From: Chloroflexota bacterium
Lineage (GTDB): Bacteria > Chloroflexota > Dehalococcoidia > JACPQF01
Direction: 5' to 3'
DNA: 41,438 bases
Assembly: GCA_016190625.1 (NCBI GenBank)
Contig: JACPQF010000109.1
Coordinates: forward strand, 1 to 41,438
In this document: positions 11,018 through 41,438 of the stretch, in pieces
Numbering within the stretch: the first letter of the stretch is position 1
Layout: each line of letters begins with the position of its first letter
Notes under the pieces: model-generated
What the model was told of the DNA's origin: nothing
What the model saw: only the letters and a program-made list of their open reading frames with translations
Databases searched by the model: none
Program-made: the position numbers and the translations under genes

Positions 11018-11086
11018 TGTTTTACCTCCATCTAAGGATCTATCGTCAGGTCGCCCTATCGTATCAATCGCAAGGGCGCCCAAACC

Positions 11087-11124
11087 GTAGGGGCGAATCC
11101 TTCCGCGGAAGGATTCGCCCCTAC
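11087..11124. repeat. 38-bp perfect palindrome (GTAGGGGCGAA family)
   Basis: The arm GTAGGGGCGAATCCTTCCG is followed immediately by its exact reverse complement. It belongs with the 28-bp palindromes at 25728, 25860 and 37477 by its shared GTAGGGGCGAA end, but has a different core. It lies between the E2 stop and lpdA start and could form a strong hairpin in the mRNA that changes the E2 to E3 expression ratio. Confidence 0.9.
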
Positions 11125-11159
11125 GCGTGTCTAGATGACATCTCTTAGGCCGCTGTTGC

Positions 11160-12422
11160 CTAAACCAGGAGCGCCGAAGGACGCTCCAGCAAATGTTTTA
11201 TGGCCCGCAGGAATTTGGCGGCGGGAACGCCATCGGCGACCCGATGGTCCCAGGTAAGGCTTAGGTAGAACGTCGGTCTGACGGCCAGTTGCCCGCGGAC
11301 GACCGCCGGTCGCTCCTCCATCCCACCGACCCCAAGGATGGCGCTTTGGGGCGGATTGATAATAGGCGTGAAGGCCATCACGTCGAAGGCGCTGAGGTTC
11401 GACAGGGTGAAAGTGCCGCCGGTTACCTCGTCGAGCGTGAGAGTTCCCTCTTGCGCCTTCTCGGCCACGGCGGCAAGCGCTCTGCTAAGCTCGACCAGCG
11501 TGAGCTTGTCCGCCTCGTGAACCACCGGCACGATGAGCCCGTCCTCTAGCGGCACGGCAACGCCGAGGTTCACGCGCTCGAAAACCTTGATATCGTCTCC
11601 CTCAATGGTAGAGTTGAAGATGGGAAAGCTTACCAAGGCCCTGATCAGGGCAGCGACGATAAGATCGTTATGGGAAATCCGGACACCAATGCGCTTCGCC
11701 TCGGCCATGAGTTGGCGATGCAGGTCGGACAGCGCTGTGGCGTCCACATCGGTGATGATCGTGAGCTGAGCGCTGGTCTGGAGGCTCCGCACCATATGGT
11801 CGGCGATGGTCTTGCGCTTGCCGGTGAGAGTAATGGTCTTCGCCGTTTCGTCTCGATCATTACTTAGGCCTCTGGCTGCGTCGGCGAACCCCCGGACATC
11901 GTCCTCGACGATCCGCCCCCCCGGTCCGGTTCCTTTGATCCTCGTTAGATCGACGCCCAGTTCCAGCGCCAGCCGTTTGGCAATGGGCGACGCGATGACC
12001 CTGGCGCTAGGGTAGAGGGTAGAGGGTTGAGGGTTGAGGGACGGGGGATGAGGGAAGGGGGATAAGGGCTCAGGGGCGGGGCTTTCCCCTCTACCCCCTA
12101 CCCTATACCCTATACCCTCTACCCTGTACCCTCTACCCTCTGCCCCATACCCTCTGCCCTCTCCTATTAGTGAGTGGTATTCTTCCTGTGAGGCGGCGAC
12201 GAGGCCGCAGGTGCCGCCGCAGGGGACGACTGTGCCCTCCTGAGAAGCAATGCGGAGGATGCCCGGTCCGGGCGCCTCCACTTCGTAGACGACCTTCTCG
12301 GTCTCTATCTCTAGCACTGGCGTTCCCGCTTCGACCGGCTGCCCCTCTTCTTTGAGCCAGCGCTTGATGGTTCCTTCGACCATGGTCATGCCCAGCTTTG
12401 GCATGGCGATCTTAGCAGCCAT
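11160..12422 (-). CDS. Dihydrolipoamide acyltransferase (E2) of 2-oxoacid/acetoin dehydrogenase complex
   Basis: E2 is the core acyltransferase of the complex. An N-terminal lipoyl domain (residues 1-78) carries the lipoylated Lys43 in EIETEKVVYEVEAP. A peripheral-subunit binding domain follows at about 140-175 (ASPIAKRLALELGVDLTRIKGTGPGGRI in part). The catalytic domain ends with LTWDHRVADG, keeping the active His and Asp. The linker at about residues 86-138 is unusual: instead of a normal Ala/Pro-rich linker it reads GYGAEGRGYRVEGIGYRVGG then a Pro/Ser-rich stretch, and it is encoded by a GGGTAGAG-type inverted repeat. The frame is intact, so the repeat is translated. Context with E1 alpha, E1 beta and E3 is decisive for the family, but the substrate (pyruvate, acetoin or branched 2-oxoacid) is not settled. 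Confidence 0.94.
   Translation of the reverse strand: MAAKIAMPKLGMTMVEGTIKRWLKEEGQPVEAGTPVLEIETEKVVYEVEAPGPGILRIASQEGTVVPCGGTCGLVAASQEEYHSLIGEGRGYGAEGRGYRVEGIGYRVGGRGESPAPEPLSPFPHPPSLNPQPSTLYPSARVIASPIAKRLALELGVDLTRIKGTGPGGRIVEDDVRGFADAARGLSNDRDETAKTITLTGKRKTIADHMVRSLQTSAQLTIITDVDATALSDLHRQLMAEAKRIGVRISHNDLIVAALIRALVSFPIFNSTIEGDDIKVFERVNLGVAVPLEDGLIVPVVHEADKLTLVELSRALAAVAEKAQEGTLTLDEVTGGTFTLSNLSAFDVMAFTPIINPPQSAILGVGGMEERPAVVRGQLAVRPTFYLSLTWDHRVADGVPAAKFLRAIKHLLERPSALLV
12010..12165. repeat. GGGTAGAG-type inverted repeat inside the E2 gene (copy 2)
   Basis: On the plus strand a G-rich arm of GGGTAGAGG and GGGTTGAGG units (12010-12079) is followed by a C-rich arm of TACCCTATACCC and CTCTACCC units (12085-12165). 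Together they could form a long imperfect hairpin. The repeat keeps the E2 reading frame open and encodes its interdomain linker. Confidence 0.9.
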
Positions 12423-25678: not shown

Positions 25679-25727
25679 GTCCCAGCAGATAACCGCGAGC
25701 AAGACAACTCCGCGGGTGTGGCATAGC

Positions 25728-25755
25728 GTAGGGGCGAACGGCCGTTCGCCCCTAC
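25728..25755. repeat. 28-bp perfect palindrome (GTAGGGGCGAACGG family, copy 1)
   Basis: The arm GTAGGGGCGAACGG is followed at once by its exact reverse complement CCGTTCGCCCCTAC. It is identical to the copies at 25860 and 37477 and shares its ends with the 38-bp copy at 11087. It may be a mobile palindromic (REP/MITE-like) unit. Confidence 0.95.
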
Positions 25756-25859
25756 GCATATATGAGCCACGCGATCTTCTTGTCGAGCTGGGTTGCTTTC
25801 AACGAGCCGTCTCGCCCCGTGACTTCAAGGGATCGACTACAACGATTCGCACAGCGATC

Positions 25860-25887
25860 GTAGGGGCGAACGGCCGTTCGCCCCTAC
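25860..25887. repeat. 28-bp perfect palindrome (copy 2)
   Basis: Identical in sequence to the unit at 25728, with about 104 bp of unrelated DNA between them. Having two identical copies this close suggests recent duplication or repeated insertion. Confidence 0.95.
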
Positions 25888-25985
25888 GCGTTGGCGGCGC
25901 GGCCCGTGCCTCACCACAAGAAATAAGCTTGCTCGCTTAGTGTCGGTGCGAACTACTACAGACGTAGGCAGAAGAAATTAGATAG

Positions 25986-26045: not shown

Positions 26046-29000
26046 CTACCAACCGCTCGCGTATCCTCTAAGCACCACCGGCAGGTAGACGCTGTAGGGA
26101 GGCGTCGTAGCCGTCGGCGTCGGGCTTGCAGTAGCGGTTGCCGTCGGGCTTGCAGTAGCGGTCGCCGTCTCGGTGGTCGTGGCGGTCGCCGTAGCGGTCG
26201 CCGTGTCCACCGCCGTAGCCGTCGGCGTCGGGCTTGCCGTGGCGGTTGCCGTCTGAGTCGCCGTCGCCGTAGCAGTAGCGGTTGATGTCGGCGTCGGCGT
26301 CGGACTCGGCGTGGCCGTCGGGGAAGACGTAGCTGTCGGCGTTGGCGTTGCCGTGGCAGCTCCGGCAACCGCTATGGTAGCCCAGGGGCTGGTGAGAGTG
26401 CCCGTTCCATCGTTGATGACCGCAGTATTGGTGATGACCGACCCCGCGGTGACGCCCAAGTTCAGGGTCACCCTGAACGTAACTGTCACCGACTGGCTCG
26501 CCGAGATGGTGCCGCTCCAGCGGATCTGCCCCGTCCCCTGGTGGAAGGTAGCGGCTGGGGAGGGGGAGACAGAGCCGGACACGTAGGTCACCTCGCTGGG
26601 CAGGCTATCGGTCAACACGGCGGAAGCGTCGGCGTCGCCGCTATTGGCCATGATCACAGTGTAGGTCACCGTATCGCTCGCCTGCAGGTTGCTGCTCGGG
26701 CTGGCCGCCTTGGTCGAGGTGCCCAGGTCCGGGGCAGTGCCGGCCGTCCCGGCGCTGCCGCCGGTGATGGTCCACTGGCTAAAGTGGTCGGTATAGATAG
26801 TCAGCGTATTTGCCGTCTTGTCCTGAACCACGTTCGTCATGTTCCGCCAGCTACCGGTGGCGCTGTCCCAATAGCTGCCCATGACCTGATCCTCGGTGAT
26901 GCCCAGAGCCGCCAACTGCTCCTCAGTATATTGCAGCACTACAGAGACGTTTTGGCGGAACCTGCTGATCGCCGCATTGTTACTGTCCAAGGCCGACAGG
27001 TCATAGGCCAGGCCGATAGGACGCGCCGACCCATCCATTGCTACGTTGCCCTTCGGCACCGCGTTCACGGTGACCGTGCCAGACACGGCCAGAGAGCCGG
27101 CTGGGATGATGATCTGGGTGCCGTCGCCCAAAGTGATCTGCCTCATGGCCGATGCGTCGAAGCTCGTCGACGACGAATTGGGCATCGAGGTGCCGCCACC
27201 CGCCAGCACCAGATCCTGCTGCGTGGCGCCGCTGCCGACAGGGACGCTGTACACCTGGCTCTGGTACAGCGTAGAGCTGTATTCGCGCACTGCTTGTATG
27301 TGCCAAGTGTCGTCGCCGGTTACGGGCATCGAGTAGGTGCCATCGGACCGGATCTCGGTGTAAGCGCGAGCGCCGCCGTCGGAGAAGGCTCTTACCAGGC
27401 CGTCTGAAACCGCCGTGCCGGACAAAGTCACCGTGCCATAGATCGACGCCCCGGGCTGCCGGAACTGTAGATCCCGCCGAACCACCGGGGTTCCGCTGCT
27501 GACCGTGGCGGTGACTGGCGCCGGCGGCAGATAGCCGGCATCGGGCGGCATGAAAGTGTTGACTTCGTAGGTTCCGTTGGGAACGGTTATGGTATAGACG
27601 CCGCTGGGATTGGTCTCACCGCCGTATGGTGGGCGCGGGTTTCCTGACGCATCCCGCTGCATGGCCCCCACCCAGGCGCCGCCGACCGGATCGCCATTGG
27701 GCTTGCTGACAACACCCCAGATCTTCGAGCTAGCCGAGGTCACCGTGAAATTGAAGGTTGTCGTCAGGTTCTCGGTAGCGATTATCCGATTGTCGCGCGG
27801 CATCTCCAAGACATAGCCGGTGGAGGGGTCGACCCAGGCGTTCACGAACCATTCGCCCGGTGCCACTCTCATGGAATAGCGGCCGGTCTCCGCATCCACC
27901 TGGGTGAAGGAGTGCCCCTGCGGTCCCCCGGCGAACACGTTGGCTTGCAGGCCCGAGCCGGCGGCGCCGACCAAGCTTCCCGCAATCCAGGCCCTGGCCT
28001 GGGTTGCCGTCAGAACGATCGACGTGCTGCTGGTGACCACCACCCCTGTTATTCGGGAGATGCTGTATTCTGAACCGGGAGGCATTCCGCCCTCGACGCT
28101 GTAGGTGCCGGAAGGTAGACGTATGGTGAAGGTGCCGCCGTTGATCGGTGCGCCATAGCCTCGGAAGTTCGGCCCTTCGCCGACGTTAGCATTGGCGAAG
28201 CCGTAGATATCATTCAGCGGTTCACCATCGGCATCGACCACGGATCCGGTCAGCTCGCCATCGGCCGAGGAGACGACGATATTCACGTCAGAGACAGTGG
28301 TGTTCTCGCCGACGTCTACCCGGGTCGGCGGACCGCTTTGGACGTAGCGAGAGTCGGGGCTTGGCATGGCGCTGACTTCCCATGTACCCGACACCACGTA
28401 GAGGCTAAACACGCCATCGGTGATGGTGGTGGTGTGCGACCAATCGCCCGGGCCACCACCGGGACCGCCAATTCCTTTTCGGAGCCAGGCGCCTATCTCG
28501 ACATCGGCAAGACCCCTGCCACTGGCGTCCTTTACGTAGCCGGTGATCAGGGAATTCCGGCCCTGCAGCGTAAGCGTGCCAAGCTGCTTTGTCTCATCTT
28601 CGCCAAGAACGATAGGATCGAGGCGGGGACTGGACAGCGAGGTATCTGGCAGCCAGACGTCGAACATATAAGTTCCAGGGGGCAGGGAGACCCGGAAACT
28701 ACCGTCCTGTTCCACCGGTCCACCGTTGCCGAACCCAGACACACTGTGGAAACCCACGCCCGCCTGAGTTGGGGGATTGCCATCGGGCTTCAGCAGGCGC
28801 CCCATGATTAGCGAGCCAGCGTTGGTAACGGTGAAGTTCACCGTCTTAGTAATCGGATCTGAATTGTCGGCGAATTCGACCCTCACAGGCGGCCTGCCGT
28901 AGGTCCAGTCGGGGATTTGCTCGGGCCTGGCCGGGCCGACCGATACCATCCAGCCACCGGGGCTGACGTCGATGGTGTATCTGCCCTGGTCGTCTACTGT

Positions 29001-31656: not shown

Positions 31657-33321
31657 ATGGAGGCAACCTTTGCCAAAAGAAAACGGGACACCAAGGCGGA
31701 CCCGGCGCACCGCCTGGCGCTGGAATTTTTCCTTCTCTTGAAGACGTTTTTCGGTCCGGTCCGCCTCCTATTAGTCGTGGCCTTGTTCGCCGTGGTGGCA
31801 CAGGAGCTCATCATTTCGAGGTACACGGTGGACGACGCCTTCATCTCGTTTCGTTACGCCCGTAATCTGGTCGAAGGGAACGGCCTGGTCTTCAATTCGG
31901 GCGAGCGAGTGGAGGGATACACTAACTTCCTCTGGACCATGACGCTGGCGGGCGCGCTGCTGGTGAAGCTGGATCCCGAGGTGATCGCCAAAGGGCTTGG
32001 CATTCTGGCGAGCCTTGGCACCATCTATCTGGTATACCGTTTGTCGCTGCGCACAAGATCGCAGGGGTCGCCTTGGCTGTTCTCGATCGTAGCCCTCGCG
32101 CTGCTGGCCGCCAACGGCGCCTTCGCCACCTCTGCCATCACGGGGCTGGAGACCAGCCTATTCAGCTTCCTCATCCTCGCCGGCGCCTGTGCTGCCATCC
32201 GTGCCAGTCGCATGACAGCCGACGATCTATCGGCCGGGCGACGATCGACTAGCGACGACGAGAGGGTACCCCTCCCCATCGTTGGCGACCGCTGGCAACA
32301 CCTCACTCCCCTCATCTTCGCCCTCGCAGCCTTGACTCGTCCGGAAGGAGTGGCGGCCTTCGCCACGACCCTTGTTTTCAAAGCCCTTTCCCGCAACTTT
32401 CATCGCGATGATTTCAAGCAATGCGCTTGCTGGCTGGCCGTATTTGCCGCCATCTACTTGCCCTACTTCGCCTGGCGTCTCTGGTACTACGACGAACTCC
32501 TGCCAAACACGTTTTACGCCAAGACCGGCGCCGGCCTGGCCCAGTTCTATGTTGGTCTCCTGGACGTGGGGGATTTCAGCGAAGCCTACGTCGGCATCGT
32601 CTTTCTTCTGGCCCTGGTCGTGCTGGCCCGTCGCAAGGCTCCCTTCTGGCTGACCTACGTTACGGCATTAGCGCTAACCTTCGTCCTTCTCGACATCTAC
32701 GAAGGCGGCGACTGGATCCCCTTCTTCCGCTTTCTCGTTCCCGCGTTGCCCTTCTACTACCTCGTGATTCAGGAGGCGGCGCGGCTTCTCCACAAGAGCG
32801 CTACCTCTCGCCTTCCCCGGCCGGCGGCGAACCTGGGCCTCGGCTTGGCTTGCCTGGCGCTGGTGGTCCTTGCAGTCCGCCCCTCGTTCGAGATGTATGA
32901 GTATTTGACGAGAGCTGAGGGTGGACAGGAGACGGCTCATGCGACGCTGGGCCGGTGGCTGAAGGACAAGACGACGGAGCCAGTCGCCCTTATGGACATC
33001 GGCCGCATCGGCTATTTCTCTCGTCTGCCGGTAATAGACACTAGTGGCCTCACCGACCGAACCATCGCCCATTCCACAGGGGGCATGATCGACAAGGAGT
33101 TCGACCTGGCCTACGTCCTCGGTCGCCAGCCACGGTACTTCGTTCTTGCCAGCACGACCGATTATCTCGGGTCCGGAACGGAACCGACCGATTTCCCCAT
33201 CGAGAAGAGGATCTTCGAGGATCAGAGGTTTCACGAGCGCTACGCCTACCGGTTCACGTTGGATTGGGGGACGGTAGTCGACGGCAAAGGATACTATCTG
33301 ATGGTCTACGAGCGGATATGA
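31657..33321 (+). CDS. GT-C type membrane glycosyltransferase (AftB/ArnT-like)
   Basis: The 554-aa protein has about ten membrane segments. Just after the first it carries YTVDDAFISFRYARNLVEGNGLVFNSGERVEGYTNFLW (read here in pieces), a signature of GT-C enzymes of the mycobacterial AftB/DUF2029 type, with the DD pair as probable catalytic acids. The C-terminal part is extracytoplasmic and ends in RFTLDWGTVVDGKGYYLMVYER. It would transfer a sugar from a polyprenyl-phosphate donor on the outer face of the membrane. It is the first of six genes; the next start overlaps its stop (ATGA). The ATG is not preceded by a ribosome site. Confidence 0.88.
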   Translation: MEATFAKRKRDTKADPAHRLALEFFLLLKTFFGPVRLLLVVALFAVVAQELIISRYTVDDAFISFRYARNLVEGNGLVFNSGERVEGYTNFLWTMTLAGALLVKLDPEVIAKGLGILASLGTIYLVYRLSLRTRSQGSPWLFSIVALALLAANGAFATSAITGLETSLFSFLILAGACAAIRASRMTADDLSAGRRSTSDDERVPLPIVGDRWQHLTPLIFALAALTRPEGVAAFATTLVFKALSRNFHRDDFKQCACWLAVFAAIYLPYFAWRLWYYDELLPNTFYAKTGAGLAQFYVGLLDVGDFSEAYVGIVFLLALVVLARRKAPFWLTYVTALALTFVLLDIYEGGDWIPFFRFLVPALPFYYLVIQEAARLLHKSATSRLPRPAANLGLGLACLALVVLAVRPSFEMYEYLTRAEGGQETAHATLGRWLKDKTTEPVALMDIGRIGYFSRLPVIDTSGLTDRTIAHSTGGMIDKEFDLAYVLGRQPRYFVLASTTDYLGSGTEPTDFPIEKRIFEDQRFHERYAYRFTLDWGTVVDGKGYYLMVYERI

Positions 33322-34904
33322 AGAAGCTAGTCGCTGCCGACGCAACAAGCCTAGCTGTCTGGCTGGCCAGCCTGGCGATCCTCGGTGTAAGCGCGATTCC
33401 CATCACGCAGCCCGGTTATATGGATGCTTACTACTACCAGCACGTGGCGACAAACCTGGCGACTGGCCGGGGATTGGTGGAGGACTACGTCTGGAACTAC
33501 CTTCCTCCGCCGGAGACACTGACTCATCCTAGCAATCTTTATTGGATGCCGCTGACGTCTCTGGCCCTGGCTCCCTTCTTCCAGTTGTTGGGGGACTCGT
33601 TCCGCGTCGCCCAGATGCCCTTTATTCTGTTTGCCTCTCTGTTTGTCCTCTTCACCTTCCGTCTGGCGATCTGGCTGACAGGGAATCGTCGACACGCCCT
33701 GGCGGCCTCCGCCCTGACTCTATTCAGCGGGTTCTACTTCGCCTACTGGACCTCGCCTGATAGCTTCGCCCTCTTTGGCCTGGCGGCCAATATCGCGCTG
33801 GTCGCAGGATTCAAGGCGGCGGGCATGTCACGCAAGTCGATTGGTCTCGCCGCGGGCGCGGGAGCTCTCGCCGCCTTGAGCCATATGGCAAGGGCAGATG
33901 GCGCGCTTGTCCTGGGGGCGATATTGTCAGCGATCGCCTTCCAGGCCTGGCGGGGAAGCGAAGCGGCAGGTGTGCGCCCTCGGCGTGAGAGAGTGATCGG
34001 CGGGGCGTTGGCCATCGGCGCGTGCCTCGCCGCCTACATCATAGTGATGTCTCCCTGGTTCATGCGGAGCTGGCAGCTAGTCGGCAGTTTTCTCCCCGCG
34101 GCCGGACTGAAAACGCTGTTTTTGAGGGAGTACAACGACTTCTTCACTTTCGGCAGGGACTTGACTTGGCAATCATATGCGTCATGGGGACTCTTGCCAG
34201 CATTGAGATCCAAGGTCGAGGCCCTCGGGACCAACATCATGGTCCTTTTCGGCATGGAGTACCATCTGGTTCCCTTCGCCCTTCTAGGGCTGTGGCATTT
34301 TCGCCGAAAAGCGGCGCTCGTGCCGTTTTTCATCTATGCCGCTATGCTCTATTTTACGATGTCGTTGCTGTTCACTTTTCCGAGCGGGAGGGGCAGCATG
34401 CTGCATTCGAGCGTGGTCTTTCTGCCCTGGCTGTCTGTCGCGGTGGTTGCAGGTCTGGACCAGTCGGTAGTCTGGGCAGGGCAGCGCCTTCGCCATTGGA
34501 AGGTGGGGCTGGCGCAGCGCAATCTCACCCTGGTGTTGGTCTTATTCGCCATCTTCTTTAGCGGCTTTCTCCTGATTCGGGAGGCAGGGAAAAGAGACGA
34601 GCGCTATCGCCACTACGGTGAGATCGCCGCCTGGCTCCGGGAGGCTGCTCCTGATAGCGTGATAATGATCGCTGATCCGCCGGGATATTACTACAGCAGC
34701 GGCAAGGGCAGCATCGTAATTCCGAGCGACGAGGTTGACTCCGTTCTCCTCGCCGCTAGGTGCTATGGCGCCTCGTACCTCGTTCTCGAGAAGGTTCATT
34801 CCCGGCCTCTCCATTCCATTTACTCGGGCGAGAGGACCGATCCGCAGCTAAGGAAGGTGGCCGAAATCGAAACGACAAAGATCTACAGGATCGGGGAGCA
34901 ATGA
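33318..34904 (+). CDS. GT-C type membrane glycosyltransferase (PMT/ArnT-like)
   Basis: The 528-aa protein starts at an ATG that overlaps the previous stop (ATGA at 33318), so the longer ORF start is wrong. After the first membrane segment it reads GYMDAYYYQHVATNLATGRGLVEDYVWNYL, with Asp in the usual GT-C loop position. About eleven membrane segments follow, including LTLVLVLFAIFFSGFLLI before the C-terminal extracytoplasmic domain (IAAWLREAAPDSVIMIADPPGYYYSSG). No repeat insertion is seen in it, in contrast to the next gene. Donor and acceptor are unknown; a polyprenyl-phosphate sugar donor is typical. Confidence 0.87.
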   Translation: MKKLVAADATSLAVWLASLAILGVSAIPITQPGYMDAYYYQHVATNLATGRGLVEDYVWNYLPPPETLTHPSNLYWMPLTSLALAPFFQLLGDSFRVAQMPFILFASLFVLFTFRLAIWLTGNRRHALAASALTLFSGFYFAYWTSPDSFALFGLAANIALVAGFKAAGMSRKSIGLAAGAGALAALSHMARADGALVLGAILSAIAFQAWRGSEAAGVRPRRERVIGGALAIGACLAAYIIVMSPWFMRSWQLVGSFLPAAGLKTLFLREYNDFFTFGRDLTWQSYASWGLLPALRSKVEALGTNIMVLFGMEYHLVPFALLGLWHFRRKAALVPFFIYAAMLYFTMSLLFTFPSGRGSMLHSSVVFLPWLSVAVVAGLDQSVVWAGQRLRHWKVGLAQRNLTLVLVLFAIFFSGFLLIREAGKRDERYRHYGEIAAWLREAAPDSVIMIADPPGYYYSSGKGSIVIPSDEVDSVLLAARCYGASYLVLEKVHSRPLHSIYSGERTDPQLRKVAEIETTKIYRIGEQ

Positions 34905-37396
34905 CAGGAAAGCGACGAGGGCTACTGGCCTACATCGCCGTGGTGCTCTGGATCACCGGGGTTTTCGCCGGGTACTATGCCGTTCACAAGCCAGTGGGTG
35001 CGGAATCGTTTCCCCCCATTGCCGCTGAGTTCGGCAGGCTCCTCCACCCCTGGTCGGCGTCCGCGCTTGCCGATGCCGCTTTGAATCTGGCTGCAGCGCT
35101 CTGGATCGGGCTTGTCAGCTTTGGGCTTGGCCGGCTCGCCTTGCGGGCGTTCCGGCTCGGTTTGACCCGGCTCGAAAGCAGGGTTCTGTCCACGTCTCTG
35201 GGCCTCGGCATCATCTCTCTCGTGAGCTTCTTTCTCGGTCTAGCCGGATTGCTTTATCCCTGGGTCTTCTACACTTTATTCGCCTTGGCTGGCGTTGCCA
35301 TGGTGGGAGCCGCGCTGAGGGAGCGCCCTCACCCTAACCCTCTCCGCGCCGGGGTACCCAGCCAGAGGGCTGGGTCAGCACCCGGGCGGGAGAGTGGATC
35401 CCCTCCATCTTCCCCCCAGGGGCGAACTCAGCATCCAAACCCTCGCTCTCCACAGGATGAGGGTGGGATGAGGAAACCGTTACCCTCTCCCTTCGGGAAA
35501 GGAGAGTCTGGGACGAGTAAACCGTTACCCTCTCCCTTCGGGAAGGGAGAGGGTAGGGTGAGGGTTCCCCTCAGTCCTCACCTCTGGAAGCCCAGTGCCA
35601 AAGCCATATGGGGATTCGCCCGGAATGATAAGAGCAGCTTTGCCCTCGCCGTGTTTGTCGCTTTGACGGAAACCCTCGCCCTGCTGGCTGCTCTGGCGCC
35701 GCCCTGGGCCTGGGATAGCCTCGTCTATCATCTCACCGGTCCGGGGCTGTATTTGGAGCAACATCGCATAACCAGTGGCCTGGACGGGATGCACTTCTAC
35801 TTCCCTCCCCTGGTCGAGCTGCTGTTCCTTGCCGGTGCGGCCATGAAGGGGCCGGTGGTGGCCAACCTGATCCATTGGGAGTTTGGTCTCCTTAGCGTGG
35901 GTGCGGTGTTCTGCCTTGCCCGACGATTCTCCGGCGTCAAGGTGGCCTGGCTGGCATCCGCCGTTCTCCTTTCGGCGCCCAGCGTGGTCATGTTATCGAG
36001 CAAAGCCTACGTCGATCTCGCCCTGTTGCTCTACCTGACCCTCGCCTTTGGCTGCGCAGTGGAGGGCCTTCGCTCCGGCGGGCGGAACTGGCTGCTTCTC
36101 GCCGTCGTCTTCGCCGGTTTTGCCGGAGGAATAAAGTATACGGGGCTGGTGGGACTGCTGGCCATCGGGGTGGCGGTTGCCCTCGAAATGGCGCTGGCCC
36201 GCCGTCCGGCTATCCTTCTCAAAAGGACGGCGTCTGCAGTGCGGAGCAAGGACGTGGAGGCTTCAGCAGGGGAGAGTCAGCGCGGTTGCCCGGCTAAAGC
36301 CTCAGCGTCCAGCGTTGGGAAACCGGATGCCGTCCTTCCGAGAAGGATAGCCGGAGACCGCCGCAACAATTGGCGCCTCATTGCCGGCTGCCTCCTCGTG
36401 GCAGCCGTTCTGGCGTCCCCCTGGTACATCAAGAACCTTTTCTTCACCGGGAACCCTTTCTATCCCTTCGTCTTTGGCGGGGAATTCTGGGATTCCTTCC
36501 GAGCCGAATGGGTGGCGCGGGCGGGAAGCGGGCTCGCCGGCCAGCCCTGGCGTCTTATCGTCGCTCCCCTGGAGATGACCGTTCTCGGCGTCGAGGGTGG
36601 GTGGGGATACCAGGCGACCATCGGACCGCTATTCCTCGTTCTGCTGCCTCTGATTAGGGTAGAGGGTAGAGGGTTGAGGGTAGAGGAGAGGGCGGGTCTG
36701 GTGTTTGTGGGGGTTCTTTACGTGGTGTGGTTGGTGGGGGTTGCCCAGTCGGAGCTGCTGCGTCAGACTAGGCTGCTGTTTCCCGCGTTCGGCGTATTGT
36801 CTGTTTTCGTCGCCTCGGGTGTTTGCCGCCTAACTGCAGTCGGCGGGCTGAATCCCCGCCGGTTTGTTGGGGGCGCCATCGCTTTGGCGTTGGTCTTGTC
36901 CCTGACGGCGCAGACCGTCGCTTTTCTGGCCGATTCTCCGCTACCATTTGTCGCAGGAGCGGAGTCTCAGGAGGATTATCTGGCCCGCCACCTAAACGGG
37001 TACTACGAAGCGGCGGAGTTCGTGAACAACAGTCTCGGCGAGGACGCCCGGGTCTACTTCCTCTGGGAGCCGCGGTCCTACTACTTCCGGCGGCCCGTCC
37101 AGCCTGATACCATTCTGGACAACTGGCGCCACCTGCTGTTCCTGTACGGGGATGGCGACGCCATTGCGGCGGCCCTCCGGCGGCAGGGGTACACCCACGT
37201 TCTCGTCAATCTCGACGGCCTGCGCTACTTCGGCGAGGAACCGCATCGAGAGGTGGGGAAGGGCGACCGCGACGCCCTGGTGGCGTTCGAAAAGCGCCAT
37301 TTGAAATTGGTATACGGGAATCAGGTGGAGGCCATTCATTTGACCGGGCAGGCGCAGTCCGGCCCCGGCTTCTATTCGCTGAGCAGATTGGAGTAG
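34901..37396 (+). CDS. GT-C type membrane glycosyltransferase enlarged by three in-frame repeat insertions
   Basis: The 831-aa protein starts at an ATG overlapping the previous stop (ATGA). Catalytic-type loop APPWAWDSLVYHLTGPGLYLEQHR lies near residues 265-290, membrane segments are numerous, and the C-terminal domain reads YLARHLNGYYEAAEFVNNS. Three stretches look foreign: residues about 142-222 (PHPNPLRAGVPSQRAG, LPSPFGKGES), 436-485 (AILLKRTASAVRSKDVEAS) and 585-598 (RVEGRGLRVEERAG). Each lies between membrane segments and is encoded by a different repeat family. Without them the protein would be about 680-690 aa, closer to the family norm. The frame is open throughout, so the insertions are translated unless spliced by an unknown means. 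Confidence 0.87.
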   Translation: MTGKRRGLLAYIAVVLWITGVFAGYYAVHKPVGAESFPPIAAEFGRLLHPWSASALADAALNLAAALWIGLVSFGLGRLALRAFRLGLTRLESRVLSTSLGLGIISLVSFFLGLAGLLYPWVFYTLFALAGVAMVGAALRERPHPNPLRAGVPSQRAGSAPGRESGSPPSSPQGRTQHPNPRSPQDEGGMRKPLPSPFGKGESGTSKPLPSPFGKGEGRVRVPLSPHLWKPSAKAIWGFARNDKSSFALAVFVALTETLALLAALAPPWAWDSLVYHLTGPGLYLEQHRITSGLDGMHFYFPPLVELLFLAGAAMKGPVVANLIHWEFGLLSVGAVFCLARRFSGVKVAWLASAVLLSAPSVVMLSSKAYVDLALLLYLTLAFGCAVEGLRSGGRNWLLLAVVFAGFAGGIKYTGLVGLLAIGVAVALEMALARRPAILLKRTASAVRSKDVEASAGESQRGCPAKASASSVGKPDAVLPRRIAGDRRNNWRLIAGCLLVAAVLASPWYIKNLFFTGNPFYPFVFGGEFWDSFRAEWVARAGSGLAGQPWRLIVAPLEMTVLGVEGGWGYQATIGPLFLVLLPLIRVEGRGLRVEERAGLVFVGVLYVVWLVGVAQSELLRQTRLLFPAFGVLSVFVASGVCRLTAVGGLNPRRFVGGAIALALVLSLTAQTVAFLADSPLPFVAGAESQEDYLARHLNGYYEAAEFVNNSLGEDARVYFLWEPRSYYFRRPVQPDTILDNWRHLLFLYGDGDAIAAALRRQGYTHVLVNLDGLRYFGEEPHREVGKGDRDALVAFEKRHLKLVYGNQVEAIHLTGQAQSGPGFYSLSRLE
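35325..35565. repeat. CCCTCACCCTAACCC-type element inside a glycosyltransferase gene
   Basis: The outer ends CCCTCACCCTAACCCTCTCC and GGAGAGGGTAGGGTGAGGG are inverted repeats. Inside are an ACCCAGCC/GGCTGGGT hairpin and two direct copies of ACCGTTACCCTCTCCCTTCG. It resembles the dispersed CCCTCACCCTAACCC elements of many bacterial genomes. It adds about 80 residues to the protein. Confidence 0.88.
36206..36354. mobile_element. MITE-like element with 29-bp terminal inverted repeats inside a glycosyltransferase gene
   Basis: The left end CCGGCTATCCTTCTCAAAAG is mirrored by the right end ending in CGAGAAGGATAGCCGG, with about three mismatches over 29 bases. An inner pair, GGACGTGGAGGCTT and AAGCCTCAGCGTCC, adds a second stem. 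At 149 bp it cannot encode a transposase. No clear target-site duplication is visible. It is read through in frame. Confidence 0.85.
36656..36693. repeat. GGGTAGAG-type G-rich repeat inside a glycosyltransferase gene (copy 3)
   Basis: TAGGGTAGAGGGTAGAGGG followed by TTGAGGGTAGAGGAGAGGG, the G-rich arm only. It encodes RVEGRGLRVEERAG, much like the YRVEGIGYRV encoded in the E2 linker by the same family. Confidence 0.88.
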
Positions 37397-37400
37397 CCTC

Positions 37401-39239
37401 GTGAGGCAGGCGGCGACTCAAGATTCTTATCTAACGGCATGGTTCAGGAGAGGCAAAGGTGGCGGTAGCGTTCACCGTAGGGGCGAACGGCCGTTCGCCC
37501 CTACTCGTCGTGAGTCAAGGCCGCTGATTTGTCCCACAACTGTAAACCCGTCGCTAAACCGCGACCCTCGAGCAGAAACCGGTCGTTGGCTTGTCGCACC
37601 GGCCCTTGCCCTCGGTCTGGTCCTTCGCCTCCTCGACCTCGGCGGGCGCAACACCTGGTATGACGAGATCAGCAGCATTTTGTTCGCCGAGAAAGATCTG
37701 GCGACGATTGTCAGAGCCACGGCTGCCGACACGATGCCCCCTCTGTACTATTTCCTCCTCCACTTCTGGCTCCTTCTGGGCAACAATCTATGGGTCGCAC
37801 GGTCGCTCTCCGTGCTCCTTAGCGTGGGAACGATTGTCGTGGCCTTCGCCATCGGCCGGCGTTTGTTCGGGGCCAGGGTAGCCCTGATCGCCTCGCTTCT
37901 CGTGGCCCTGAATCCCTTTCAGATCTACTACGGGCAGGAGGTGCGCATGTATTCGCTCCTCGCCCTATCGCAGTTGCTCGCCATCTACTTTCTCCTCCGA
38001 TGCCTGGATAGTAGCAGTTTCGGGAACTGGACGGGCTTCGCCCTCAGCCAGAGCGTGGCCATGTACACCCACAATGCGGCGTTCTTATCGCTGGCCACTC
38101 TGGATGTTCTGGCGCTGGGGATATGGTGGCTCTTCCATGTTCGTCATGCGGCAACCAGATCCGGATTAACCGAACAGGTTACGGCGTCAACGGATATTCA
38201 ACGGATAAACGGATGGATGCAGGCCGGCTATCAGGTTATCCGTTGCTCAAATCCGATGACGCCATCTCCACGTGGCCTATCGAGTCTCGTCGGTCCTTCT
38301 GTGGAAGGACGGTCCGTCCCGCTTATCAAAGACCTGATCCTCGCCAATCTGTCCATCGCGGTGCTCTTCCTGCCCTGGCTTTTCTACTTGCCCGGCCAGT
38401 TGGCGAAGGTGACCCGCGCTTTTTGGACCCAAACGCCGGGGGTAGCCGAGGTTGTCAGGTCGATCGTGGTCTTCACCTTCAACCTTCCCAGCCCCACGCC
38501 CTGGTCCTTTCCTATCCTTCTGGCTGTGAGCCTTCTCTTGTCCGCATTGGTGGTCTACTCCATCGGCAAGGCTGTACGGCCGGCGGGACGGGAGTTCCAG
38601 GCGCTCCTCTTCTTTGCCACAGTCTGCTTCTCAGCCCCGATTGTGCTCGCCGTGCTGGTCTCCCTGGTGAGGCCGATCTACGTGGAGCGGGTCCTCATCG
38701 CGCCTTCGATTCTCTATCTAATCCTCCTGGCCTGGGCAGCGGAGCGACTGCGGCCGCGCTTCATGGCGCCCGTCTTGCTCGTGCCGGTGATACTCGTCTC
38801 CGCCTGGTCCCTCCTGGCCTACTATCAATACGATGGGTTTCCCCGGGTCGCCTTCCCCCGGGTCGTAGATTCCTTGAAGGACAGCGTGCAGGCCGGCGAC
38901 GTTATCGTCCACGACAACAAGCTCACCTTCTTTCCTGCCTATTACCTGAGGCGCGACCTTCCACAGCGGTTCCTTCCCGACCCTGACTGGTCCATGAACG
39001 ATACCCTTGCCGGGCAGACGCAAGACGCGCTGGGATTGAGAGCGAGTGCGCTCGCGGAGGCCGTCGAGGGCAAGTCGAGGGTATGGTTCGTGGTGTTCGA
39101 AAAGTCCCTGACCGAGGCAAGAGAGCAGGGCAGGGCCAACGAGAACGTGGAATGGCTGGACAGCCGGCTCCAGTTGGCGAGCAAACAGAGCTTCGGCGAT
39201 CTATCAGTCTATCTGTACACGAGGATATCCAACCCTTGA
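37401..39239 (+). CDS. GT39/PMT_2-like membrane glycosyltransferase with two in-frame repeat insertions
   Basis: The 612-aa protein begins at a GTG with GGAG seven bases upstream, four bases after the previous stop. There is no other ATG, GTG or TTG in frame before the catalytic loop NTWYDEISSILFAEKDL. Motifs follow the PMT_2 pattern: WYDE, DTMPPLYYFLLHFW, then YYGQEVRMYSL. The N-terminal tail (residues about 26-35, GERPFAPT) is encoded by the 28-bp palindrome. Residues about 261-288 (STDIQRINGWMQAGYQV) are encoded by a second repeat. About twelve membrane segments precede a C-terminal extracytoplasmic domain. It is paralogous to the last gene of the window. Confidence 0.88.
   Translation: MRQAATQDSYLTAWFRRGKGGGSVHRRGERPFAPTRRESRPLICPTTVNPSLNRDPRAETGRWLVAPALALGLVLRLLDLGGRNTWYDEISSILFAEKDLATIVRATAADTMPPLYYFLLHFWLLLGNNLWVARSLSVLLSVGTIVVAFAIGRRLFGARVALIASLLVALNPFQIYYGQEVRMYSLLALSQLLAIYFLLRCLDSSSFGNWTGFALSQSVAMYTHNAAFLSLATLDVLALGIWWLFHVRHAATRSGLTEQVTASTDIQRINGWMQAGYQVIRCSNPMTPSPRGLSSLVGPSVEGRSVPLIKDLILANLSIAVLFLPWLFYLPGQLAKVTRAFWTQTPGVAEVVRSIVVFTFNLPSPTPWSFPILLAVSLLLSALVVYSIGKAVRPAGREFQALLFFATVCFSAPIVLAVLVSLVRPIYVERVLIAPSILYLILLAWAAERLRPRFMAPVLLVPVILVSAWSLLAYYQYDGFPRVAFPRVVDSLKDSVQAGDVIVHDNKLTFFPAYYLRRDLPQRFLPDPDWSMNDTLAGQTQDALGLRASALAEAVEGKSRVWFVVFEKSLTEAREQGRANENVEWLDSRLQLASKQSFGDLSVYLYTRISNP
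37477..37504. repeat. 28-bp perfect palindrome within the N-terminal coding region (copy 3)
   Basis: Identical to the units at 25728 and 25860. It lies 76 bases after the only usable start codon of the glycosyltransferase gene, so it is translated as RRGERPFAPT. A hairpin this strong so near the start could lower translation. Confidence 0.95.
38183..38263. repeat. AACGGATAAACGGATGG-type inverted repeat inside a glycosyltransferase gene
   Basis: The left end GGCGTCAACGGATATTCAAC is mirrored by the right end TTGCTCAAATCCGATGACGCC with small gaps. About 30 bases later a GTCCTTCTGTGGAAGGAC mini-palindrome (38293-38310) follows. Both are read in frame in a loop between membrane segments. It resembles the lgt/lpdA terminator repeat at 9531. 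Confidence 0.8.
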
Positions 39240-40828
39240 TAGCGATGTGGTTGAGGTTCATTCTGGTACTGGCGCTGTCTCTTCCCTTCGGAGTGGTGGG
39301 GTATTTTGCGCCCTCCAGTCTCCTTGAATGGGCGACGAGCCTGCGAGGAAAGCATCCCCGCGCTGTCAGGCTCGGACCGGCAATCGGCTTGGCAGTGGCG
39401 ATAACCGTCTGGGCGGCGACCTTTTCGACCCTGTCGATCTGGCGCCACCTGGCCCTGGGGACCCACGCCTTTGACTTGGGAGTGTACGACCAGGTTATCT
39501 GGAACTCGTCCCAGGGCAGGCTATTCGAGTTCTCCCTATCGGAGGAGCCGCTCGCCGCCAACGCGCTCAACTATCTCGGGTTTCATTTCTCCCCCGGTCT
39601 TCTGGCCCTGACGCCCCTCTACTGGATCGTTCCCGACGTGCGCGCCCTGCTCGTCGTTCAGACTTTGGCCATAGCCTCGACGGCAATTCCCATCTACCTC
39701 GCCGCCAAGCAGACTTTGGGTCGCCGGATGGCTGCCCTCGGCTTGGCCGTGGCCTTTCTCCTGACGCCGGCCACCGGCTACATCAACCTCTTCGACTTCC
39801 ACTCCGTGGCTCTGGCCATGCCATTCATCGCTCTGGCAGTTCACTTCCTCGGCAACAGGATGTACACTGGATGGGGGATCTGCATGGCGCTGGCCATGAG
39901 CTTCAAAGAGGATATTGCCGTCGTGACGCTTGCCCTAGGATTGTATATCGCCCTCAAGCAAAGGAGGTGGACCGTCGGTCTGGGCGGCGTCGCCGGCGGC
40001 CTCCTTTGGCTCTACCTCGCCGTCGAGGTCATCATACCCCACTTCCGTGGGGACTCGTACTATTACCTCACCCAGTACTCGCGTTTTGGTGGAAATCTCG
40101 GCCAGGTCGCCCTGTCGCTGCTGCTCGACCCACGCAATCTCCTAGGGTTGGTGGCGGACCCTGCCCGTCTGGAGTTCGCCCTCCATCTGCTCGTCCCTCT
40201 GGGCCTGACGCCGTTAGTCGGCCTGGAGGGTTTTCTGACCACCGCGCCGGTTTTCGGCTATCTATTTGCCAGCGGCGACCCCCAAAAGTATTCGATAATC
40301 TTTCACTATTCGGCGCCGATTCTGGGGTTGCTGTTCGCTGCCGCCGCCCTGGGAATCCGCAGGCTGGAACGCTTCCTGACGAGATCGACCAGGAGAGAGA
40401 GCCGGCGGGCGAGACCGGTCCTCCTCTCCATCATGTGCTTTCTTCTGGCGACGAGCGCTCTGAGCTACTTTTTCAACGGCCGGGGACTCGCGAGCATCGG
40501 CTACGACGCCTCGTCCTACCGGCCAGCGCCGGGCGCCAGCGCCCTGTTCGCCGCCCTAGCACAGATCCCCCCGGAGGCCACCGTATCGGCTCACCGTGAC
40601 TTGGTTCCTCAACTGACCCATCGCCGTTTTGTCTATCTGTTTCCGGACGTTCACGACGCCGACTTTCTCGTGCTGTGGGAAGGCGACGATGGAGCCGACC
40701 AATCAGACCAGCCGGAGTGGAAACGGCAGGTGTCGGCGGCCCTATCGGACCGGCGTTATGAAGTTCTGTTCCGGGAGCGCGGCTTTGTTCTAATGCGCAG
40801 GCTAGCACGAGGACAAGGATCGACATGA
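39236..40828 (+). CDS. DUF2079 multi-spanning membrane protein
   Basis: The signature THAFDLGVYDQVIWNSSQGRLFE followed by GFHFSPGLLALTPLYWI identifies DUF2079, a family related to GT-C glycosyltransferases. Further conserved text is FHSVALAMPFIALA and MSFKEDIAVVTLALGLY. TTG at 39236 overlaps the previous stop (TTGA); ATG at 39245 is the alternative. About 530 aa with ten or more membrane segments and a C-terminal extracytoplasmic part (PPEATVSAHRDLVPQLTHR). The role is unproven, but the family commonly sits among glycan-assembly genes, as here. The track start at 39083 lies inside the preceding gene. Confidence 0.88.
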   Translation: MIAMWLRFILVLALSLPFGVVGYFAPSSLLEWATSLRGKHPRAVRLGPAIGLAVAITVWAATFSTLSIWRHLALGTHAFDLGVYDQVIWNSSQGRLFEFSLSEEPLAANALNYLGFHFSPGLLALTPLYWIVPDVRALLVVQTLAIASTAIPIYLAAKQTLGRRMAALGLAVAFLLTPATGYINLFDFHSVALAMPFIALAVHFLGNRMYTGWGICMALAMSFKEDIAVVTLALGLYIALKQRRWTVGLGGVAGGLLWLYLAVEVIIPHFRGDSYYYLTQYSRFGGNLGQVALSLLLDPRNLLGLVADPARLEFALHLLVPLGLTPLVGLEGFLTTAPVFGYLFASGDPQKYSIIFHYSAPILGLLFAAAALGIRRLERFLTRSTRRESRRARPVLLSIMCFLLATSALSYFFNGRGLASIGYDASSYRPAPGASALFAALAQIPPEATVSAHRDLVPQLTHRRFVYLFPDVHDADFLVLWEGDDGADQSDQPEWKRQVSAALSDRRYEVLFRERGFVLMRRLARGQGST

Positions 40829-41438
40829 GAGTATTCCAGCGGCGGTTGATCGTAGGCCTGGTCATCGCGGCGGCCCTCCTCAGCCGGTGGTTCCACCTCG
40901 ACGCCCAGTCGGTCTGGTATGATGAGGCCGTGGTAGTCCTCTTCTCCGGTAAGGGCCTGGCCTGGATATTCGCTCATCTTACCCAGGACACCATGCCGCC
41001 CCTTAATTACCTGCTTCTCCATTTCTGGTTGGGACTCGGCCGCCAGGAGGGCGCAATGCGGGTTCTCTCGTTCCTCTTCTCGGCGGGCTCCCTTCCCTTC
41101 GCCTATTTGCTGGCTCGCCGGCTGTTCGGCCGGCGGGTTGCCCTCCTGGCGATTCTCCTGGCCATCTTCTCTCCTTTCCAGATCTACTTCGCCCAGGAAG
41201 CGCGTATGTACGCTCAGTTGTCGTTCTTCAGCCTGGCAGCCGTCTATTTCTTTCTGCTAGCATGGCAGGAAGGGGGCCGCTGGCCTTGGCTTGGCTTCGC
41301 CCTGTCGTCCATCGCCGCCGCCTACACCCACAACCTCGGCCTGCTCACCTTGTTCAGCCTCGACGTTTTCGCCCTGGGCACGGTAGTGGTTAGGGGTCAG
41401 GGATCAGGGGACAGGGGACAGGGGTCAGGGGTGAGGGG
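40825..41438 (+). CDS. GT39/PMT_2-like membrane glycosyltransferase, 3' end outside window
   Basis: This gene is missing from the ORF track because it has no stop in the window. ATG at 40825 overlaps the DUF2079 stop (ATGA). It reads MRVFQRRLIVGLVIAAALLS, then SVWYDEAVVVLFSGKGLAWI, DTMPPLNYLLLHFWLGLG, IYFAQEARMYAQLSFF and AYTHNLGLLTLFSLDVFALG. This parallels the gene at 37401 motif by motif. The final visible residues, VVVRGQGSGDRGQGSGVRG, are encoded by a G-rich repeat at the same loop position where the paralog carries its own, different repeat. About 205 residues are visible of an expected 500 or more. Confidence 0.9.
   Translation, partial: MRVFQRRLIVGLVIAAALLSRWFHLDAQSVWYDEAVVVLFSGKGLAWIFAHLTQDTMPPLNYLLLHFWLGLGRQEGAMRVLSFLFSAGSLPFAYLLARRLFGRRVALLAILLAIFSPFQIYFAQEARMYAQLSFFSLAAVYFFLLAWQEGGRWPWLGFALSSIAAAYTHNLGLLTLFSLDVFALGTVVVRGQGSGDRGQGSGVR
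41389..41438. repeat. GGGTCAGGG/GGGACAGGG G-rich repeat at the window end
   Basis: AGGGGTCAGGGATCAGGGGA and similar units run to the edge of the window. The unit (GGGG-TCA, GGGG-ACA) differs from GGGTAGAGG but has the same G-run spacing. It is translated in frame as RGQGSGDRGQGSG. The right boundary is not visible. Confidence 0.8.

Follow-up and report, generated by a model that had tools for sequence, protein, structure and literature searches.

Why do two paralogous glycosyltransferase genes on one contig carry unrelated repeats in the same loop of the encoded membrane enzyme? The window analysed here is a whole contig (C81, 41438 bp) of a metagenome-like assembly (3.18 Mb, 65% complete, a fragmented MAG), and its final base lies inside the G-rich repeat of gene 40825. 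The earlier note on this DNA had taken the repeats in genes 37401 and 40825 as signs of a favoured and tolerant site, perhaps with an adaptive role. The repeats are there, as are the motifs that precede them. The two proteins, both with Pfam PMT_2 matches, exhibit 45-48% identity over their common N-terminal part, and the genes are predicted from these sequences to encode paralogous GT-C glycosyltransferases, each with an unrelated repeat in the TM6-TM7 loop. The genes of the cluster and the repeats within them are listed in Table 1.

Table 1. Predicted glycosyltransferase genes of the cluster and the repeats that they contain (positions in the window)
Feature	Start	End	Strand	Remarks
GT-C-like gene	33264	34904	+	Same cluster; without repeat
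Third GT-C gene of the cluster	34760	37396	+	PF13231, E = 2.7e-6; three different repeat types
Element E (CCCTCTCCC..GGGAGAGGG, peptide PSPFGKGEG), dispersed	35319	35571	+	N-terminal region of 34760, before GT-C TM1
Element D, nested palindrome, TM6-TM7 loop of 34760	36205	36355	+	30-bp arms; fold of 36200-36360, -97 kcal/mol
Heptamer array (AGGGTAG)n, cytoplasmic loop 4 of 34760	36654	36686	+	TTG variant avoids TAG stop
GT-C (PMT_2) glycosyltransferase gene with insert A	37401	39239	+	PF13231, E = 9.5e-13, over cut-off; AF2 model nearest ArnT
Element C, 28-bp GTAG-tagged perfect palindrome GTAGGGGCGAACGGCCGTTCGCCCCTAC	37472	37507	+	About 45 places in genome; N-terminal tail of 37401 ORF
TM6-TM7 loop of 37401 protein	38160	38321	+	Alignment and model; about 65 aa in excess of orthologs
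Element A, dispersed imperfect palindrome	38177	38269	+	Family match; fold of 38177-38290, -43.7 kcal/mol
GT-C-like gene (DUF2079)	39245	40828	+	PF09852, E = 7.8e-73; without repeat
Paralogous GT-C gene, cut by contig end within repeat	40825	41438	+	Pfam PMT_2 match
G-rich heptamer array (GGTCAGG)n, TM6-TM7 loop of 40825	41385	41438	+	TRF period 7, 7.3 copies, 41388-41438

In gene 37401 the motif MYTHNAAFLSLATLDVLALG ends at 38120 and element A begins about 57 bases further on. The repeat is a single palindromic element of about 90 bp with flanking extra sequence, and there is no tandem array. Its 31 genome matches (E<=0.01) include the self-match and the both-strand matches of one palindromic copy, and reduce to about 20 places. 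The 16-nt arms are 88% complementary, which gives element A the terminal inverted repeats of a MITE; the GTAG tag is absent from it (38177-38290), leaving a dispersed palindrome only. In gene 40825 the motif AYTHNLGLLTLFSLDVFALG ends at 41379. The heptamer array that follows it reads, in this orientation, without a stop in any of the three frames and has many partial matches elsewhere in the genome. Neither repeat is a product of chance. Element A and the G-rich array share no common sequence family, and Rfam gave no matches in 33000-41438. In an alignment with its orthologs from G073, G022 and G088, the extra residues of the 37401 protein fall between two helices, one that follows YTHN and one that ends in LPW; in the orthologs this interval comprises about 8 residues. 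The idea of one shared position holds for the TM6-TM7 loop but not for the residue: element A starts about 19 residues past the LALG motif, the G-rich array about 2 residues past it.

Further repeats lie in the ORF of 37401 and in the neighbouring gene 34760. Two of the three frames of the element C palindrome are open; the conserved part of gene 37401 begins near 37590, the real start of the gene may lie downstream of 37401, and element C may lie upstream of that start. In gene 34760, element D has 30-nt arms, 90% complementary, again with the terminal inverted repeats of a MITE, and in the alignment it is missing from the 34760 orthologs of G073 and G022. The (AGGGTAG)n array is open on one of its strands only; the copy in 34760 is in the closed orientation, and a T removes the stop. 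Three repeat types in one gene of a fragmented MAG could point to decaying pseudogenes that accumulate repeats. This is very unlikely, as the reading frames run uninterrupted for 600-880 codons, the DE motif is retained along with other near-invariant GT-C residues, the structural model described below is confident outside the insert, and the neighbouring genes have conserved orthologs in G073 and G022.

A search of relatives for the remainder of gene 40825 yielded no close ortholog; contig C73 surfaced instead, its end having been matched in the homology search with 37401. Read from that end, C73 (L177) exhibits first a G-rich repeat of the same kind as in 40825 (GGGGGACAGAGGACAGGG), next other short repeats, and then an open frame that covers a GT-C protein from TM7 onwards, its C-terminal half. 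Since other places in the genome (C58, C26, C51 and others) match across both contig ends (C81 and C73) as one block, with about 73% identity, C73 is likely to be the continuation of 40825 beyond the end of C81, a join read from these matches. As C81, C73 and C89 all terminate in repeats, one could also imagine that the repeats are chimeric contig joins. Such an artefact is very unlikely: elements A, D and C are contig-internal and in frame, both gene halves align to the same ortholog, and the same pattern is found in other assemblies (G007, G022, G073, G026).

On which side of the membrane does the loop lie? An AlphaFold2 model of the 37401 protein built with 73 sequences (pLDDT 85.2, pTM 0.89) places TM6 at residues 174-200 and TM7 at residues 255-274 of the translation of window:37560-39236; a model with 4 sequences (pLDDT 56) was set aside as too poor. 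The insert lies between the two helices, is modelled as disordered, and includes a low-confidence stretch at 229-249. The top Foldseek matches to the model are ArnT 5ezm (E-value = 2.5e-8) and 5f15, and VIA Z is about 26-28 to Pmt4, ALG12 and ArnT. On this model the protein has the GT-C fold, and glycosyl transfer is its predicted activity. The fold, the topology and the DE motif in the first periplasmic loop are common to the 37401 protein, ArnT and other GT-C glycosyltransferases (5ezm, 5f15), whereas the repeat-derived insert is without aligned counterpart in ArnT. D35 and E36, the acidic DE motif after TM1, are nearly invariant in the 73 sequences. In GT-C enzymes the catalytic acid is periplasmic, as is the acceptor/donor site, and conservation extends over the first seven helices (PMC12041525). 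Because of the position of the catalytic acid and the conservation of these helices, the TM6-TM7 loop probably faces the cytoplasm, as the positive-inside rule also suggests. A cytoplasm-facing loop had been put up for structure prediction by the earlier note; the insert is indeed placed between TM6 and TM7, on the cytoplasmic side by GT-C homology. Inserted peptides were net positive in 12 of the 12 cases tested, and none of the 12 is hydrophobic enough for a TM.

The TM6-TM7 loop also contains repeats in other genes, all different in sequence from each other and from element A, element D and the G-rich array. In the fourth paralog (C140) the loop holds a TAGGGGCG..CGCCCCTA hairpin, and G007_C5, a homolog from another family, has a 92-nt hairpin there with about 45 copies in G007. 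The loop elements of G022_C55 and G073_C17 are dispersed in their own genomes, and G040_C409 has a short hairpin. At least eight independent repeats, unrelated in sequence, are thus found in this loop in five genomes, those of this bacterium and of several relatives. Together with the cytoplasmic position of the loop and the modelled disorder of the insert, this agrees well with the view of a tolerant site.

For a count of insertions per loop we aligned 136 PMT_2 (GT-C) proteins from nine genomes and drew the loops by hydropathy and arginine content; an insertion was accepted on the basis of genome copy number or of an exact-arm inverted repeat inside it. Median lengths hardly differ among the five cytoplasmic loops (14-15), and the periplasmic loops make up about two thirds of the loop length. 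Of the 16 repeat insertions found in the 136 proteins, eight are in CL3 (TM6-TM7), eight in other cytoplasmic loops and none in periplasmic loops. Outside CL3 there is one insertion in CL1 (G040_C250), one in CL2 (G026_C32), two in CL4 (C96 and the heptamer of 34760) and four in CL5 (G022_C55, C89, G040_C250 and, weakly, G026_C38), C89, with its badly aligned cut end, being assigned to CL5 by reading the sequence. Long CL3/PL4 segments in TIGR03663-like proteins (C60_38960 and relatives) are common to several genomes and represent family architecture rather than insertions. Nine other long loops (G007_C199, G007_C60, G007_C225, G007_C134, G040_C367, G040_C359, G054_C1, G088_C191 and G022_C18) gave only the self-match in their own genome and were not taken as repeats; the one of G088_C191 contains a palindrome and was left out of the count. 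Inverted repeats in TM and PL2 regions had no accompanying insertion in the alignment and were dropped.

The share of CL3, 8/16 against an expectation of 1/5, corresponds to a binomial p = 0.007, or to p = 0.044 (6/14) once the two seed cases are left out. Both tests were made post hoc, and three of the CL3 insertions come from neighbouring genes of a single genome. Another 101 proteins served as a replication set; with the inverted-repeat criterion fixed beforehand, they gave one insertion in CL3, one in CL4 and none in periplasmic loops, and several more of their long loops, in CL2, CL3 and CL5, look repeat-derived. Having only two insertions, one in CL3 and one in another cytoplasmic loop, this set leaves the CL3 preference undecided. 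The contrast between the cytoplasmic and periplasmic sides (16 to 0, and 2 to 0) is solid. The preference for CL3 over the other cytoplasmic loops is suggestive, and its excess could be partly luck; the notion of a favoured site is upheld to a moderate degree by the first count. An excess of this size in one of five cytoplasmic loops of similar length might also be expected if the loop-encoding DNA were a preferred target of several mobile repeats. We consider such site-specific targeting very unlikely: the insertion points vary within the loop, the element families are unrelated, the loop DNA is not conserved between genes, and GTAG REPs are known from many unrelated genes (PMC3733652).

The elements themselves are of several kinds. 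Element C and a G007 palindrome (CGTAGTGGCGGAC..GTCCGCCACTACG) are GTAG-tagged hairpins with many dispersed copies, mostly intergenic, a bias measured for element C only. Two RAYT-type (Y1_Tnp) genes of G007 (L326, L329) have the same G007 palindrome on both sides, and a REP-associated tyrosine transposase on C67 (NF047646, E-value = 6e-15, 55 bits against a cut-off of 80) has element C at its start, on the 5' side, and inside, though not clearly on both sides. We infer that the GTAG families are mobile through RAYT. The known GTAG REP/REPIN and RAYT systems (PMC3733652, PMC3116915, PMC8266576) likewise comprise short GTAG-starting palindromes in tens of copies, mostly intergenic and some intragenic, and palindrome-flanked RAYT genes as in G007. 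The present case differs from them in that elements A, D and the heptamers are without the GTAG tag, and in that several unrelated families occur in the same homologous loop within a family of membrane enzymes.

Several additional repeats were noted in passing. Two copies of the 28-bp GTAG palindrome (25725-25757 and 25853-25891) lie in the window between a BY-kinase-like gene and the gene of a 1796-aa repeat protein, the Thr-Ala-rich C-terminal tail of which is encoded on the - strand by GC-rich 12/36-bp tandem repeats (26106-26320). A variant palindrome, GTAGGGGCGAATCCTTCCGCGGAAGGATTCGCCCCTAC, is located at 11085-11128, and GGGGCGAATCC copies are found elsewhere in the genome. At L051:1257-1973 (- strand), a REP-associated tyrosine transposase gene has element C within its own coding sequence.

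Short tandemly repeated heptamers (STRR) are known from cyanobacteria. The AGGGTAG and GGTCAGG arrays resemble these dispersed 7-bp arrays in pattern, but are found inside coding loops as well as in intergenic regions.

How do the repeats behave in genes at large? Copies located in ORFs amount to 9/29 for element C, 5/14 for the heptamer and 3/10 for CCGGCTAAAG, against 75% of random positions, which indicates depletion from genes; the 547-kb sample was partly picked around repeat copies, which would inflate the repeat numbers but not bias their position relative to genes, and parts of C102 and C77 in it were overwritten by reversed sequence (L046, L081). The same elements are also present in genes for D-Ala-D-Ala ligase, a UvrD-type helicase, GH38 alpha-mannosidase and SAM-HAT, and in an E2 linker. 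The D-Ala-D-Ala ligase gene (L191:6565-7716) has an in-frame element C in the N-terminal domain, and in the UvrD-type helicase with a PD-(D/E)XK nuclease domain (L190:1423-4749, - strand) element C lies between the two. In a 2-oxoacid dehydrogenase E2 of the window (gene 11163-12422, - strand), a heptamer array at 12005-12162 is inserted in the linker that connects the lipoyl domain with the E3-binding domain. REPs in repair genes, GTAG repeats in Chloroflexi and intragenic REPs have already been reported, and flexible linkers and loops were suggested as tolerated sites (PMC3733652). The Rickettsia palindromic elements (RPE; Ogata 2000, 2002) are inserted in frame in unrelated genes and add residues to the products (PMC10969869). 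In its insertion pattern element C is similar to them, being inserted in frame in the GT-C, D-Ala-D-Ala ligase and UvrD-type helicase genes. In contrast, RPE families represent one peptide in many proteins, whereas here many elements are found in one loop of one protein family.

These observations bear on the suggestion of an adaptive variable loop, in which repeats would be recruited since changes to a cytoplasmic loop shift specificity or the binding of partners. That neighbouring paralogs have repeatedly received insertions in one and the same loop is what such recruitment would produce. However, the inserts are without common sequence or motif and are modelled as disordered; they are found equally in linkers of housekeeping proteins; and zero inserts were found on the periplasmic side, where the acceptor/donor site of GT-C enzymes is located (PMC12041525). 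With the same elements present in unrelated soluble proteins, and depleted from genes overall, an adaptive role is hard to maintain, and no sign of a selected function for the inserts was found in the present analyses. We also consider it very unlikely that the loop is an exploited landing site at which heptamer slippage switches genes such as 40825 on and off and produces phase-variable surface glycans, although gain or loss of a heptamer unit (7 bp, not a multiple of 3) would change the frame.

We favour instead, with a probability of roughly 0.8, the reading that REP/MITE-like elements, some of them RAYT-linked, insert widely, and that selection keeps in-frame copies only where the extra residues are harmless. 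We prefer it because the repeats are under-represented in ORFs, are present also in unrelated genes, and occur in frames and orientations free of stops. Several short non-autonomous repeat families (GTAG-tagged REP/REPIN-type palindromes, larger MITE-like hairpins and heptamer arrays) would spread and insert without visible target site. Gene-breaking copies would be lost, and copies would persist if in frame, stop-free, hydrophilic and located where added residues do no damage. In polytopic GT-C glycosyltransferases, the short cytoplasmic loops, mostly TM6-TM7, and the N-terminal tail would accept such copies, and the periplasmic loops, of which the active site is built, would refuse them. Element A in 37401 and the G-rich array in 40825 would be two independent events of the same filter. 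The inserts are presumably neutral, and the TM6-TM7 loop looks like a place that tolerates junk insertions rather than a variable region by design.

Palindromic repeats inside genes are already well documented for the Rickettsia RPE (PMC10969869) and the GTAG REPs (PMC3733652). The small new part is that insertions recur in a single homologous loop within a family of membrane enzymes, for which we found no report in the literature searched. Intragenic REP and palindromic elements are usually catalogued gene by gene; here, unrelated elements have repeatedly and independently hit the same side, the cytoplasmic one, of one membrane enzyme family. Such repeats represent a natural insertion-scanning experiment, of use for checks of membrane topology and for separating tolerated loops from essential ones in uncultured organisms. 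They also carry a warning for annotators: a long loop in a GT-C enzyme may be repeat DNA rather than a domain.
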